From the IMG/VR virus record IMGVR_UViG_3300030328_002969, positions 1 to 21,576 of that record: 21,576 nucleotides of DNA. One strand, 5' to 3'. Source of the DNA: a virus. Positions 2,173-19,496 of the stretch are shown one piece after another (position 1 is the stretch's first letter; each line of letters opens with the position of its first letter). Under the pieces are notes generated by a model that saw only the letters and a list, made by a program, of their open reading frames with translations, had not been told where the DNA came from and ran no database searches. Position numbers and translations under genes: made by a program.

Positions 2173-3458
2173 AATTCAAGGTTTAAGCCAATAGTTGATT
2201 TAAATATTTCAGTGTCCCAAAACTTGGTATATTCACCTTCTACAAATATACCTAATTTTGAATTAATGTTCCAGCCCAGAATTAATCCCGCCTGGTAATC
2301 ATCCCACTGCTCTAACTCAGAGTCTTGGATTAATCCTCCAAGTCCCCAATTGTTTCTGTTTAAATAACTAAAAGCCTCATCTCCCTTGAAATAATGATGA
2401 TAAGGTAATATATAATTTGCATAAGCATGAACCCATATTTTGTCAGTATAGGTATACCAGTCAGCTCCGACAATCGGAGCAACTTCCGCAAATGCGTCTA
2501 ATAAAGCCCATTGTTCTCTATTATATCGGTTCATCAAGTCAGCAAAAACTGTCTCACGAAATTCTAAATCTGAATCGGCTACAATATTTCCATCAGGATC
2601 TATCCAATACCAATCAGATATATTATTTCCCAATGCGTCTTGTTGTGTGTAATATATGTCGTCATAGCCATATTCAAACCCTAAAGTATACCAAGGGTTT
2701 AAGGCTTGACCTGATTCATTTGTTTCATTTAACCATATTTCAACAGGGTTGTATCCGAAAGCTTGTTGGTGTGTTCTGGCAATGACTCCTGCGGAAATAC
2801 TAAACTTTTTTCCAATTGGTAATCTTCCTCTCACTTCAGCTGATTGGTATTTAAACCCTACATTACCTTCCTCTCGTGATTCAACTTTAGCAATGTGATG
2901 CTTACCTGTATGCCTAAGAAAGTAGCGGTGGTTTTCAAAAACCTCACCTCTCTGTCTTTCTTTCTCCCAGTGGAATAAATATTCCCATCCGTTAAATGCA
3001 GCGGTTGGAGCTGACAGGGCTACGTTTTTTTCTGTTCCATCATAGTATGCTTTTTCCTTATTCTCATAATCAAAGCGTGCAATTCTTCTAATCCCCACCC
3101 CATATCTGTAATCAAATTCATGATATTCCGTAGCATCCTCCACTACAGGCACATCATAAAGACTACCGCTTGGATTAGTTCTAACTACATAATCAATAGA
3201 TTGTTTTTGATAAGGGTTACTTATATCTCCTGCAACATAAAAAGTTCCATACTTTAATAAGTCTTCATAAACCTTTTTAAAAAATTTACCTTTCTTTTGT
3301 TTTTTTTCAAATCCCTCTATTAGGGTTTGTTCTTGGACGGAATCTAATTCCTGTACAACTTGAGCCTGAGATGCTACGCAAAACAAAGCTAAAAGTGTTA
3401 CTACTATAATAAATATAGCCTTAGAGGCTATTGATTCAGTTTTTTCTTTTCTTTTCAT
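2169..3458 (-). CDS. Exported protein resembling an outer-membrane beta barrel
   Basis: A 429-residue protein with an N-terminal hydrophobic segment (AIFIIVVTLLALFCVASQAQ) that reads as a signal peptide cleaved near residue 32. The rest is rich in aromatic residues and alternating patterns (for example KKFSISAGVIA, LGIFVEGEYTKFW) and ends STIGLNLEL, resembling the C-terminal strand of outer-membrane barrels. It lies between a small secreted protein and the endolysin, in the same leftward operon. I know no function. Possibilities are a host-surface change such as superinfection exclusion, help with outer-membrane disruption at lysis, or a virion component. The barrel is inference from pattern and export signal. 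Confidence 0.65.
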   Translation of the reverse strand: MKRKEKTESIASKAIFIIVVTLLALFCVASQAQVVQELDSVQEQTLIEGFEKKQKKGKFFKKVYEDLLKYGTFYVAGDISNPYQKQSIDYVVRTNPSGSLYDVPVVEDATEYHEFDYRYGVGIRRIARFDYENKEKAYYDGTEKNVALSAPTAAFNGWEYLFHWEKERQRGEVFENHRYFLRHTGKHHIAKVESREEGNVGFKYQSAEVRGRLPIGKKFSISAGVIARTHQQAFGYNPVEIWLNETNESGQALNPWYTLGFEYGYDDIYYTQQDALGNNISDWYWIDPDGNIVADSDLEFRETVFADLMNRYNREQWALLDAFAEVAPIVGADWYTYTDKIWVHAYANYILPYHHYFKGDEAFSYLNRNNWGLGGLIQDSELEQWDDYQAGLILGWNINSKLGIFVEGEYTKFWDTEIFKSTIGLNLEL

Positions 3459-3799: not shown

Positions 3800-4080
3800 C
3801 TTTCTTTTGTTAATTCAAAAATTCGTGTTTCCAATAATTTTAAAGTCTCTTTCATCTCTTTAACATCTTCTTGGGTTGTCATTATGGCATCACGAATTAT
3901 TTGGTCTTTATAAGTAAATTCTGTTTTAGTTACTTCTGGTTCTGGTCTTTCCATGGCCAAAGCAATGTCAGCTTGTAAGACAAAATACATGCTACATAAG
4001 GAGATAGTAAAACCTACTATCATACCAATTGTTTTAAGATCTAATGTGACTTTTGTGTCTTCTCCTATTTGCTGCGCCAT
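3796..4080 (-). CDS. Small membrane protein with periplasmic coiled coil
   Basis: A 94-residue protein with a short N-terminal stretch (MAQQIGEDTKVTLDLK), one hydrophobic helix at about residues 17-36 (IGMIVGFTISLCSMYFVLQA), and a charged C-terminal helix with heptad spacing (EDVKEMKETLKLLETRIFEL). The 'TKV.LDLKTIG' start recurs in small phage proteins as far as I remember. Single-span topology with an outer coiled coil recalls an inner-membrane spanin or a lysis-timing protein, and the lysis genes are nearby, but no lipoprotein partner is visible. Its start is one base from the stop of the repeat virion gene. Function inferred only weakly. Confidence 0.55.
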   Translation of the reverse strand: MAQQIGEDTKVTLDLKTIGMIVGFTISLCSMYFVLQADIALAMERPEPEVTKTEFTYKDQIIRDAIMTTQEDVKEMKETLKLLETRIFELTKER

Positions 4081-6718: not shown

Positions 6719-7156
6719 ATGCCTACCTACAACTATTTAAAATATTGGCGAGTAGTCCGATATTGGGCAAAGGCTAAATATGGTTTAACTACACCAGATT
6801 TAGATATGCTGTTTTTCCTCTACAGCGAAGAGTACTTTAACAAAACTAAGTTCAAAGAATATGAAGAAGTGATGTCTTGGGATATAAATCGGTTTAACTC
6901 TTTACTTAGAGATGGATGGATACATGTGTGGAGGAGGCGTAAAGGAAAACATGCCACTCTTTATGAATTAACTTATAAAGCTAAAATGGCTGTAAATACT
7001 ATATATAAAAAATTAAATGGAGATGAAATTGGAGAACACCCTGCGGTTAACCCTTTATTTAAAGTAAATGTTAGCTATATGGATAAAGTTTATAGACAGA
7101 AAATTGTAGAGATGAATAAATTTATAAAACAACAACGACATCTCTCTCTTGAATAA
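6719..7156 (+). CDS. MarR-like winged-helix protein
   Basis: A 145-residue protein resembling a winged helix-turn-helix of MarR type: helices at about residues 5-20 (LKYWRVVRYWAKAKYGL) and 26-40 (DLDMLFFLYSEEYF), a recognition-like region (MSWDINRFNSLLRDGWIHVW), and a basic wing (RRRKGKHATLYELTYKAK). A C-terminal helical part follows and could dimerise. It is the only rightward gene between 1 and 9820. It starts between two divergent promoters and ends 35 bases inside groES on the other strand, so it may regulate the leftward genes or itself. The fold call is from pattern; the target is inference. Confidence 0.65.
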   Translation: MPTYNYLKYWRVVRYWAKAKYGLTTPDLDMLFFLYSEEYFNKTKFKEYEEVMSWDINRFNSLLRDGWIHVWRRRKGKHATLYELTYKAKMAVNTIYKKLNGDEIGEHPAVNPLFKVNVSYMDKVYRQKIVEMNKFIKQQRHLSLE

Positions 7157-9858: not shown

Positions 9859-9979
9859 GCTTTTTTTCTGGTGGGGGTTGGGGGTTGGTTGGCTCTCTCC
9901 TGTCTGCTCTTCTCGTTCTTCTCTCGTTGCTTGTTGCGTGGGTTGTTCTTCTCTTCTTCTCCTCTCCTCTCCTCTCTCT
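9859..9979. other. Adenine-free tract with G-rich run
   Basis: The 515-base gap from 9708 to 10222 holds no convincing gene. At its centre are 121 consecutive bases with no A on the plus strand, in a genome where A is the commonest or second commonest base. The tract starts with T and G runs: GG, GGGGG, GGGGG, GG, GG at 9870-9892, enough for a two-layer G-quadruplex. It then becomes a C/T tract (9893-9979) with repeated CTCTTCTC and CCTCT. A leftward transcript would lack U and be purine-rich, and could form a stable RNA-DNA hybrid. It ends with a CTCTCT/AGAGAG hairpin (9974-9979 with 9991-9996) around TATATATA. A run of six C lies upstream at 9789-9794. Origin, R-loop or structural role is inference. 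Confidence 0.6.
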
Positions 9980-9999
9980 ATATATATAAAAGAGAGTGC

Positions 10000-10030: not shown

Positions 10031-10162
10031 AATCACACACCGACACAAAAAAACCATAAACAAAAGCAAGTGATAAAAGCGTTATCAACTGATTGAAATA
10101 CAACAAATTAAAGCAATTCAGGGATCTATTAAAATAAAAACATTAAAAAACATTAGGATTTG

Positions 10163-10200
10163 AACAAATTATTTATATCTTTGCTAATATTATAAACAAA
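10163..10200 (+). promoter_or_regulatory. Rightward early promoter, copy 1 of a duplicated element
   Basis: Contains TATCTTTG at 10176-10183, a perfect -7 motif, 40 bases before the first rightward gene. The whole 38-base segment recurs at 15978-16015 with 35 of 38 bases identical. The nearest upstream TTTG (10159-10162) is only 13 bases from the -7 element, closer than usual, so this copy may be weaker or activator-dependent. Confidence 0.7.
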
Positions 10201-10222
10201 ATACTAACTAATTTTATACACT

Positions 10223-15769: not shown

Positions 15770-15979
15770 ATGGAAAATTCACAAACAAAAGAAACGCAAA
15801 AAAACTTTAACGCAATACAAAAAAATATTGCAAACAATTTAGAAAAAAAACAGAAAAAAGAACTAACAATGCGAGAAAAAAGGAGATATGAGGGAAAAAT
15901 AATAAGTGCTTTTATCTCTGTAATTGGCTTAATTTTATGTCTTATTTGGATATTTCTCTCAAAATATTTTGGATATTAA
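15770..15979 (+). CDS. 69-residue C-tail-anchored membrane protein
   Basis: A charged helix rich in Lys, Asn and Gln (about 1-42) followed by one hydrophobic helix near the C-terminus (about 45-66, ISAFISVIGLILCLIWIFLS). Basic residues before the helix suggest the N-terminal part stays in the cytoplasm. Its end overlaps the promoter copy 2 region by two bases. Function unknown; host-envelope or exclusion roles are possible. Confidence 0.6.
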   Translation: MENSQTKETQKNFNAIQKNIANNLEKKQKKELTMREKRRYEGKIISAFISVIGLILCLIWIFLSKYFGY

Positions 15980-16015
15980 CAAATTATACATATCTTTGCT
16001 AATATTATAGACAAA
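15968..16015 (+). promoter_or_regulatory. Second rightward promoter, copy 2 of the duplicated element
   Basis: TATCTTTG at 15991-15998 is a perfect -7 element, and a TTTG at 15968-15971 lies exactly 19 bases upstream, the expected -33 distance. This makes it the best promoter in the window. Positions 15978-16015 repeat 10163-10200 with 35 of 38 bases identical. It should start RNA near 16004-16006, just before the structured segment. Confidence 0.75.
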
Positions 16016-16017
16016 CT

Positions 16018-16035
16018 ATGAAACATATATTGTAG
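16018..16035 (+). CDS. Possible five-codon leader ORF
   Basis: ATG in the common AACTATG context, coding MKHIL, with the TAG at 16033-16035. It overlaps the left arm of the following stem, so a ribosome on it would open the stem. Could be a leader peptide for attenuation; chance is also quite possible at this length. Confidence 0.25.
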   Translation: MKHIL

Positions 16036-16135
16036 GAGGTTTAAGGTTGGAAGTCGAAAGACAGAAAAACAGGATAAACAGATAAAATGGTTTTTAATCA
16101 TAACATTCCAGTCCTGTTCGCCTCCTAAAATATAT
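16025..16135 (+). ncRNA. Candidate structured RNA or leader
   Basis: A 111-base segment without a convincing frame between a strong promoter and the gene at 16161. Its ends pair over 15 positions (16025-16039 with 16121-16135): ATATATT, one G-A mismatch, TAGGAGG, against CCTCCTA, A, AATATAT. Inside, GTC-GAAA-GAC makes a GNRA-type hairpin (16053-16062) and ACAGGA (16069-16074) pairs with TCCTGT (16112-16117) around a weaker AATG/CATT stem. TAGGAGG resembles a Shine-Dalgarno site and CCTCCTA the end of 16S rRNA. I recognise no known RNA family. It may be a free small RNA or a regulatory 5' leader. Confidence 0.5.
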
Positions 16136-16160: not shown

Positions 16161-16502
16161 ATGGGGTATAGAAGCACAATGATTTTAGGAATACCACCTG
16201 AACAAAAAAAAGAGTTTGAAGTCATACTCAAAAAACATTATGGGGAATTTATGAATGAAGTATATAAAACGCTTCAGCTTGTAAAAGAAAATAAGGATGT
16301 ACTGATCTATGAGGGAGAGTACCTTAAGTGGTATCCTGAATTTGATGATGTAAAAGAGATTACAGAGTTTTTAGAGAACACCTACAAGAAAAATGAAACT
16401 TGGTGTTTTTCAGTAGGCATTGGAGAAGATGGAAAGATACATACTGAATTAGGAGAGTGGTACGACTTTGTAGGAATATACACAACACACGAAATTTACT
16501 AA
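16161..16502 (+). CDS. 113-residue phage protein, GYRST type
   Basis: MGYRSTMILGIPPEQKKEFE, a helix, then IYEGEYLKWYPEFDDVKEIT, a helix, and WCFSVGIGEDGKIHTELGEW. The order 'GYRS ... LKWY..F.DV..I..F ... IGED' recurs in small proteins of phages and a few bacteria in my memory; no function known. It resembles in style the GTRSLT and Api92-like proteins that follow, suggesting one module of conserved accessory genes behind the second promoter. Confidence 0.65.
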   Translation: MGYRSTMILGIPPEQKKEFEVILKKHYGEFMNEVYKTLQLVKENKDVLIYEGEYLKWYPEFDDVKEITEFLENTYKKNETWCFSVGIGEDGKIHTELGEWYDFVGIYTTHEIY

Positions 16503-16518
16503 CTAAAATAAAATAACT

Positions 16519-16740
16519 ATGGAACAACAATTAGCAGAAATAGTAATGTGGGAAAAAGTCAGGCAAGATTGTAAATACCCAAAAGAAGATAACAATAATG
16601 GACTTATATATGGACTTTATCTTATAGATGATTTTGATGAGGATGGTTGGTGTGGAGATATTATAGATGTAGAGTGGTTTGAAACAGATGAGGAAAGATA
16701 TAAAGTTATAAAAGAAAACAATTTAAAAATAATTAACTAA
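16519..16740 (+). CDS. 73-residue acidic protein, unknown
   Basis: Starts MEQQLAEIVMWEKVRQDCKY and has an acidic middle (LIYGLYLIDDFDEDGWCGDI, then DVEWFETDEERYKVI). Mixed beta-helix appearance; no motif. Reads with the GYRST gene upstream and the GTRSLT gene downstream at short spacing, in the AAATAACTATGG start context. Confidence 0.55.
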   Translation: MEQQLAEIVMWEKVRQDCKYPKEDNNNGLIYGLYLIDDFDEDGWCGDIIDVEWFETDEERYKVIKENNLKIIN

Positions 16741-16751
16741 AATAAAATAAA

Positions 16752-17219
16752 ATGGGAACAAGAAGTTTAACGCATATTATCGAAGACAACAAAACCCTCA
16801 CAACAATGTATCGACACTATGATGGGGGTTTATCAGGACACGGAAACGATCTGGCAGAATTTTTAAAAGATTTTAAAGTCGTTAATGGATATTCTGGCGA
16901 CACAACAAAATTGGCTAATGGAATGGGTTGTTTAACTGCTCAACTAATAGCACACTTTAAACAGGGTTGTGGAAATATTTATATCCACCCTCCAAACACC
17001 AAAGATTGTTGGGAAGAGTACGACTACACTATTTATTTAGAAGACAACAAGATCAAAATTAAAGCTGTAAAAGTTTACGACAAAGAGTTTATATTTCAGG
17101 GAACGCCAAATGAATTATTGGGGTTACCTGAAGACCAAAAATTAGATCCACCTTTATATAAAAAGGTTTATCAATACTTAAAACAATTATTAACTACTAA
17201 AATTAAGAAAAATGCCTAA
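16752..17219 (+). CDS. 155-residue conserved phage protein, GTRSLT family
   Basis: MGTRSLTHIIEDNKTLTTMY, then RHYDGGLSGHGNDLAEFLKD, a glycine-rich loop with NGMGCLTAQLIAHFKQGCGN and IYIHPP. The set 'GTRSLT ... Y..YDG...GHG..LA.FL ... NGMG.L.AQL..HFK' marks a family common in phages and plasmids whose function I do not know. The histidines and aspartate in YDGG.SGHG could be a metal or catalytic site. The 3' end overlaps the next gene by eight bases. Confidence 0.75.
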   Translation: MGTRSLTHIIEDNKTLTTMYRHYDGGLSGHGNDLAEFLKDFKVVNGYSGDTTKLANGMGCLTAQLIAHFKQGCGNIYIHPPNTKDCWEEYDYTIYLEDNKIKIKAVKVYDKEFIFQGTPNELLGLPEDQKLDPPLYKKVYQYLKQLLTTKIKKNA

Positions 17220-17970
17220 TCATTGCTATTGTGCTATAATTGTACACCACGACAAAGATCGTAAAGTATTAGAAAAAATTGTAAAGAAAGAGGGGGGTTT
17301 AGCAGAATATCTTTTGCCTATGCCTAAAGAACTCGAGAACACAACCTCTCCTACGCAAGTGGTAACACCTAAAGCGTTTAAAGAACACGAAAAAAAGAAA
17401 GACACAGAGAAGTTTTGGACTCGAAGAATAACCAAAGAAATGCAAGAAGAATATATTGACAAATATAATTTTGATAATTGGTATGACTGGAGTTTGCATA
17501 ATTGGGGAACTAAATGGGGTTGTTATGAAAATAGTGTATCAGACAATGTCTATCACTTTACAACAGCTTGGTCGCCTCTGTGTGAAGAGTTAATAGAGGA
17601 GTTTTCTAAATTGGTAACCTCTTTTGTTTATACTTATGAAGAAGAACAAGGATGGGGAGGATGGATGAGTTATAAAGATGGAGTGTGTTACGAGTGGGGA
17701 CAATACGACATTCCTAATTGGACTGAGGATAAAACTTTTGTTATAAACCAACAAGGAGTAATTAAAGAAATGGAAGAAGACACCCCATTTTCTGATCCTA
17801 TATATGAAGAGTGGAAGATTTTAGGAACTCTATCGTATTTAGATGAGGATGAATACACAAACATAGATGACACCTACAAGCGAGGATGGTATCAGGAGTA
17901 TTGTTTAGAAGAGTTTGTGGGAGAAACAGAAAAAGAGGCGTTAGAGTTTTTCTCCCAACAACAGAAATAA
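17212..17970 (+). CDS. DUF1281/YubB ferredoxin-like (Api92-like) protein
   Basis: A 252-residue protein starting MPNHCYCAIIV, typical of the Api92/YubB ferredoxin-like family found on phages and plasmids (usually MPNWC.N...). Further family blocks are GGLAEYLLPMPKEL (28-41), DNWYDWSLHNWGTKWGCYE (88-106) and FTTAWSPLCEEL (116-127). The C-terminal 90 residues are acidic and less typical. No enzymatic role is established as far as I know; a role in plasmid or phage maintenance has been suggested. Its 3' end forms one arm of an inverted repeat (17949-17997). Confidence 0.75.
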   Translation: MPNHCYCAIIVHHDKDRKVLEKIVKKEGGLAEYLLPMPKELENTTSPTQVVTPKAFKEHEKKKDTEKFWTRRITKEMQEEYIDKYNFDNWYDWSLHNWGTKWGCYENSVSDNVYHFTTAWSPLCEELIEEFSKLVTSFVYTYEEEQGWGGWMSYKDGVCYEWGQYDIPNWTEDKTFVINQQGVIKEMEEDTPFSDPIYEEWKILGTLSYLDEDEYTNIDDTYKRGWYQEYCLEEFVGETEKEALEFFSQQQK

Positions 17971-18036
17971 AAAGTAAATGGTTGTTGTTAGGAGAAACCA
18001 ACAATGTAATTGATGGCTATATGTCGTGCCATCTCC
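17949..18036 (+). promoter_or_regulatory. Alternative stems around the stop of the DUF1281 gene
   Basis: TTTCTCC-CAACAAC (17949-17962) pairs with GTTGTTG, a three-base bulge, and GGAGAAA (17981-17997): 14 base pairs, including the last codons of the gene. A second stem GATGGC/GCCATC lies at 18012-18033. A third choice, GGAGA (17991-17995) with TCTCC (18032-18036), would exclude both. Such mutually exclusive pairing before the gene at 18053 is what a leader switch or ribosome-controlled attenuator looks like. Confidence 0.45.
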
Positions 18037-18052
18037 CATAAAAATAAAGAAA

Positions 18053-19403: not shown

Positions 19404-19496
19404 GAAGAGGAGAGGATCGGTTAATTTTACCACTAACTTAAAGGGTGTATAAGAGCATCCATTAATATTAAATGTTTTGATTCTCTCCTTTTTTTT
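19404..19496 (+). terminator. Structured attenuator-like element before the replication genes
   Basis: AGGAGAGGATC (19408-19418) pairs with GATTCTCTCCT (19479-19489) over 11 pairs with one G-U, extendable outward by up to four weaker pairs. The enclosed 60 bases contain GGGTGT/GCATCC (6 pairs with two G-U). A run of eight T (19489-19496) follows directly. This has the shape of an intrinsic terminator or attenuator in the 211-base gap before the replication module; it may instead be the 3' end of a small RNA. No perfect -7 motif was found just upstream. Confidence 0.5.

Follow-up and report, generated by a model that had tools for sequence, protein, structure and literature searches.

We found that a hairpin of 111 bases at positions 16025-16135 (plus strand) of an uncultured phage sequence is almost certainly a member of a real RNA family that has no counterpart in Rfam. 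The window, by which we mean the whole 21,576-nucleotide stretch of DNA that was analysed, belongs to a virus record of 43,667 bases whose phage genes include those for an endolysin, a holin, GroEL, GroES and an ERF recombinase. The preliminary description had proposed a structured non-coding RNA at this place, and the stability of the fold, homologs in other phages and the covariation among them all bear this out. The family as found is small: its members amount to no more than five distinct sequences from about four types of phage. Phage-encoded structured RNAs are already known; what is new here is a family that matches no Rfam 15 model. Few structured RNAs are understood in phages infecting Bacteroidota, and a family with a defined consensus, covariation and members in distinct phages lends itself to immediate tests of self-cleavage, of release from transcripts and of partner binding. 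Only a demonstration of cleavage, or of some new way of controlling the host, would make it new in category.

A stable fold close behind a promoter

All the parts first described are present in the window: an outer stem of 15 positions (16025-16039 with 16121-16135) with one mismatch (G16032/A16128), a GUC-GAAA-GAC hairpin of the GNRA type at 16053-16062, and an inner stem (16044-16052 with 16106-16115). The minimum free energy of 16025-16135 is -29.8 kcal/mol (z -4.74), a stability that none of 200 dinucleotide shuffles attained, and the reverse strand folds more weakly (z -3.6). Taken alone, the stem leaves some room for a chance or decayed inverted repeat without function. Inverted repeats with arms of 15 nt, no more than one mismatch, four or more G-C pairs and a separation of 40-120 nt are expected 0.13 times in the 43.7-kb record, against two observed, so that the stem by itself is only moderately unusual genome-wide and would not settle the matter; it is also missing from the nearest syntenic phages. 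What places the element beyond chance is its position in a short leader and, most of all, that homologs with compensatory changes exist. These homologs, their covariation and an independent covariance-model match, all given below, refute the chance reading, which we regard as extremely improbable.

A motif scan placed a Bacteroidota-type promoter just upstream on the plus strand (15968-15999), with TTTG (-33) at 15968-15971 and TATCTTTG (-7) at 15991-15998, from which we infer a transcription start near 16005. The element begins about 26 nt downstream of the -7 box and ends 25 nt ahead of the next start codon, that of a 113-aa ORF (MGYRSTMILG..., 16161-16502, plus strand). This ORF belongs to a family of unknown function, has homologs in relatives with no RNA upstream, and gave no convincing Pfam or PHROG family. 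A near-copy of the promoter region lies at 10146-10203 (83% over 58 nt), with no such element behind it.

No T-run or U-run, a feature of intrinsic terminators, follows the outer stem, which gives way to AATAAATAATTAAAA. The true terminator of the record, near base 22270, has AGGAGG/CCTCCT plus a T-run, and an origin of the element from a terminator was considered because AGGAGGTTTA..CGCCTCCT also occurs in the operon terminator; this was rejected, since the family has a variable stem and conserved ends unlike the terminator. The ARAGORN model found no tRNA or tmRNA in the element. A retron was likewise rejected, with no Rfam match and no reverse transcriptase seen nearby.

Homologs in other uncultured phages

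Sequence searches of known phages, Rfam and relatives with the window element gave no match, and a single-sequence model built from the window alone was too weak to find the family (best other matches E 0.34 and above). Of exact patterns taken from the 5' and 3' parts of the element and run against viral contigs, GGTTGGAAGTCGAAAGAC occurred in only two unrelated contigs with surroundings unlike the element, and CAGTCCTGTTCGCCTCCT had no match. The stem pattern TAGGAGGTT..GCCTCCTA gave 25 unrelated matches, as is to be expected when the stem sequence of the family varies. It was a 22-base pattern from the unpaired core that matched contig L127 (BLAST E 1.4e-12), which has GGTTTAAGGTTGGAAG and CAGAAAGACAGGATAAACAGATAAAATGG in common with the window and differs in the middle segment. 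A relaxed pattern, TTGGAAG-N(6-36)-ACAGGATAAACAG, yielded the true members L130, L133, L134, L138, L142 and L146, its other matches being coding or chance matches. The core pattern thereby has homologs in seven other uncultured phage contigs representing about three further phage types, and the homologs group as L127/L129 (cut at the contig end), L130, L133/L138/L142, L134 and L146.

A covariance model trained on the other members alone recovers 16027-16133 of the window with 78.6 bits (E 1.5e-16). Whole-record searches with a model picked up the RNA once in each of the six homolog records tested; 43 other related records gave nothing convincing, with one weak match at E 0.03, and a model search of 395 Bacteroidota genomes found no copy. 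In two further Bacteroidota samples (399 and 396 genomes), DNA searches gave only short matches that the covariance model did not support; across the Bacteroidota genomes sampled, about 1,190 in all, matches proved to be chance on inspection or were rejected by the model. Phage and plasmid collections held no copy of the family. A search with a primase-like protein encoded outside the window had brought up 80 related contigs. An Rfam search, one of the checks suggested at the outset, came back empty: none of 4227 Rfam 15 families matches the element at E up to 10 or overlaps the homologs at E up to 5. We found no published description of the RNA family in a literature search of incomplete coverage.

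Consensus structure and covariation

In an alignment of the five distinct sequences, 98% of cells are paired under the consensus structure, 10 pairs are changed on both sides, and covariation scores 0.282. The count of changed pairs and the score were reached by none of 500 shuffles, and all slid versions were far lower. With the independent model match, the test of covariation and conservation in relatives that the preliminary description had called for thus came out positive. Compensatory changes fall in seven of the ten aligned outer-stem pairs, on the two strands at 16025-16039 and 16121-16135.

The inner part of the molecule differs from what was first described, in that a helix had been missed. 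This helix C pairs AACAGGA (16068-16074) with UCCUGUU (16112-16118) in the window and is GACAGGA/UCCUGUC in the family; its end pair is A-U in the window and G-C in all other members, so the sole compensatory pair of this helix comes from the window. The window fold that contains helix C has nearly the same stability as the minimum (-27.5 vs -29.8 kcal/mol). Once helix C is formed, UUGGAA (16047-16052) and UUCCAG (16106-16111) can pair only as a pseudoknot, helix B. These two strands can pair in 5/5 sequences, with an invariant U.G wobble, and never vary, so that covariation lends no support to the predicted pseudoknot. The inner stem as described had three further pairs, one of which is broken in 3/5 sequences; the described inner fold is only partly conserved.

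Between these helices, the GUC-GAAA-GAC hairpin gives way in the homologs to a longer GGCACTAAATCGGTAAGCC segment (GGCACUAAAUCGGUAAGCC). The core CAGAAAAACAGGAUAAACAGAUAAAA at 16062-16087, mostly unpaired outside helix C, is near-identical in all full-length members, L146 being without its last bases. It is followed by a variable hairpin, UGGUUUUUAAUCA at 16088-16100, which reads GAGUGUA..UGCAUCUC in others, is absent in L146 and has two pairs changed on both sides. The interiors of L127, L130, L133 and L134 are very similar, and recent horizontal spread could therefore account for some of the conservation. The homologs do not preserve the 12- and 13-aa ORFs found inside the window copy, and this marks the element as non-coding.

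The outer stem of the window pairs AGGAGG with CCTCCT, and these had been proposed to act as Shine-Dalgarno and anti-Shine-Dalgarno sequences. A ribosome-directed switch that hides or shows either of them would fit the complementarity of AGGAGGU to the 16S tail and a TTG placed 7 nt past AGGAGG. Work on Flavobacterium, in which ribosomes lacking bS21 can use Shine-Dalgarno sites such as AGGAGGU (PMC9976891), made the idea worth testing. In the homologs, however, the motif is replaced by GTGAGG/CCTCAC, GTAGGG/CCCTAC or GTGGGG/CCTCAC while compensatory changes keep the stem, and the 12-aa reading frame is not kept. The pairing is thus conserved and the motif is not, on which the proposal fails; we consider the switch very improbable, and a Shine-Dalgarno role is possible at most as a private feature of the window phage.

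Genomic contexts and possible function

The RNA lies on the same strand as its flanking genes in every context seen. In the window it forms a 5' leader, the presumed first part of a transcript ahead of the 16161 gene. In L130 it stands between short ORFs with a DnaA-like gene next, and a homolog of the 16161 gene is also present in that contig. L133, L138, L142 and L146 carry it directly after a 92-aa ORF whose stop codon falls inside the stem (L129 is cut), with a large hairpin plus T-run further downstream. In L134 it lies between an ORF and a tRNA-like stretch, in which neither ARAGORN nor Rfam called a tRNA. The two closest syntenic relatives of the window, L006/L057 and L007/L048, share its small membrane-protein-like ORF and its promoter, but there the 16752 homolog comes directly afterwards, and neither the hairpin nor the 16161 and 16519 genes are found at that site. 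Since these relatives keep the promoter and the later genes without the RNA, and the homologs adjoin unrelated genes, the RNA is not tied to the genes at 16161-17970. The earlier suggestion that it is a leader for those genes agrees with its position in the window.

The same evidence bears on a possible cis-acting role, in which this 5' structure would stabilise or process the early mRNA that begins at about 16005. Its start close behind the promoter and its end shortly before a start codon suit such a role, and structured leaders also stand behind such promoters in other members of the phage group (L055, L060, L082 and L092). Yet in the L133 group the RNA comes after a gene rather than before one, the same promoter occurs without it at 10146-10203 and in the syntenic relatives, and a simple stabilising hairpin would need no nearly invariant unpaired core. 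We therefore regard a cis-acting leader as distinctly unlikely.

The gene-independent position, the single copy, the invariant unpaired core and the covarying stems point instead to a self-contained RNA. We put at about an even chance the reading that the element is a member of a small family (about 100-140 nt) of pseudoknotted phage RNAs that are self-contained and most likely act in trans; action in trans, taken as a claim of its own, we advance tentatively, at somewhat below even. In the window, transcription from the adjacent upstream promoter would make the RNA the leading portion of an early mRNA. The outer stem would close off helix C and the variable hairpin, and the putative UUGGAA/UUCCAG pseudoknot would hold the nearly invariant A-rich core. 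The RNA would then be kept in, or possibly released from, whatever transcript carries it, and the core may bind a conserved host or phage partner in trans. There is no terminator between the RNA and the next gene in the window, so a free RNA would need processing.

The main rival to a self-contained, trans-acting RNA is self-cleavage, because related phages have pistol ribozymes between genes of the same region, plus a hammerhead-like element. On that reading, the RNA of the window would represent a new class of small ribozyme, one that cleaves itself and thereby cuts phage transcripts in the intervals between genes. The three pistol ribozymes of L097 and the hammerhead-like element of L008 (a weak Rfam score, E 0.041, below the cut-off) give this some plausibility, as do the small, possibly pseudoknotted form, the invariant unpaired core, the sporadic presence and the gene-independent position, the RNA being tolerated behind a gene or between two genes as well as in a 5' leader. 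On the other hand, no Rfam ribozyme matches it, each record has a single copy as against three pistol copies in L097, and no conserved cleavage site is identifiable. We judge this unlikely. The broader proposition that the family is either a new natural class of self-cleaving ribozyme or a new phage RNA that commandeers some conserved component of Bacteroidota hosts, in both cases a movable module of unrelated phages, is possible but rather doubtful.

Comparison with known ribozymes gives likeness in outline and difference in detail. The pistol ribozyme (RF02679) resembles the element in its small size, its place between genes and its combination of a hairpin, an inner helix and, as predicted for the element, a pseudoknot; unlike it, the element has its variable hairpin before rather than after the 3' strand of the predicted pseudoknot, carries an extra closing stem and differs in its conserved bases, and RF02679 matches neither the element nor its homologs, whereas the same model does match L097. 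A hammerhead-like element occupies a comparable intergenic site in the related phage L008, but the GAAA of the window is a hairpin loop that is not found at that place in the homologs, the hammerhead core CUGAUGA...GAAA...NUH is absent (there is no CTGA in 16025-16135), and Rfam gives no match. In the HDV fold it is the second strand that pairs with the last, the first being paired internally. The first strand of our element, by contrast, pairs with the last, and no HDV-like Rfam match was obtained. HDV-like theta ribozymes of gut phages are phage RNAs near tRNAs (PMC10879173), and the L134 member similarly stands beside a tRNA-like stretch. With phage small RNAs and the stem structures at the 5' ends of phage mRNAs, the element shares a presumed early-promoter transcript and a compact fold; it differs from them in that no Rfam 15 sequence or structure family matches it.

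Other RNA elements in the window and related phages

The family draws attention to a group of phages with many RNA modules in their early region, among them known ribozymes and further conserved RNAs that Rfam does not match. The pistol ribozymes of L097 lie at 1978-2047, 2808-2877 and 3960-4031. The hammerhead-like sequence of L008 (CUGAUGA...GAAA...GUC, about 2928-2982) lies directly ahead of the 17212-gene homolog.

A second conserved structured RNA was found at 19405-19495 of the window and in L005 (about 2855), L053 (6524), L066 (1478), L072 (2690), L103 (3999), L079 (6868), L126 (6522) and others. It has an outer stem, one or two small hairpins, an invariant AATATTAAATGTT and often a T-run at its end, and lies upstream of the DnaA-like gene region. 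With 20 sequences aligned, double changes occur in 9/9 predicted outer-stem pairs. Rfam matched it neither in the window nor in those relatives that were scanned, and the equivalent position in L057 lacks it.

A recurrent leader hairpin (CCUCACUA-UGAAA-UAGUGGGG, UUUU, then GUGGUA) shows compensatory changes and has up to four candidate copies per locus. It occurs in L050 (about 3545), L051 (1380), L052 (2555), L053 (4270), L055 (2490 and 4325), L058 (1070), L092 (4417), L103 (297) and others; it is absent from the window and has no Rfam match. Long-stem leaders whose sequence is unlike the family described here lie between a promoter and the DnaA-like gene in L092/L093/L094 (about 6943-7018, L092 and L094 numbering), L060 (about 3340-3420) and L082 (about 2634-2698).

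Within the window, small hairpins lie at 17977-18041 between the 17212 and 18055 genes, and the equivalent interval of L048 (2513-2587) holds a tRNA with a CAU anticodon. Hairpins followed by T-runs, with long extra sequence in their loops, occur at L058 5745-5816, at L081 about 9880-9983 and upstream of 2596 in L082, as if material had been inserted into terminators.
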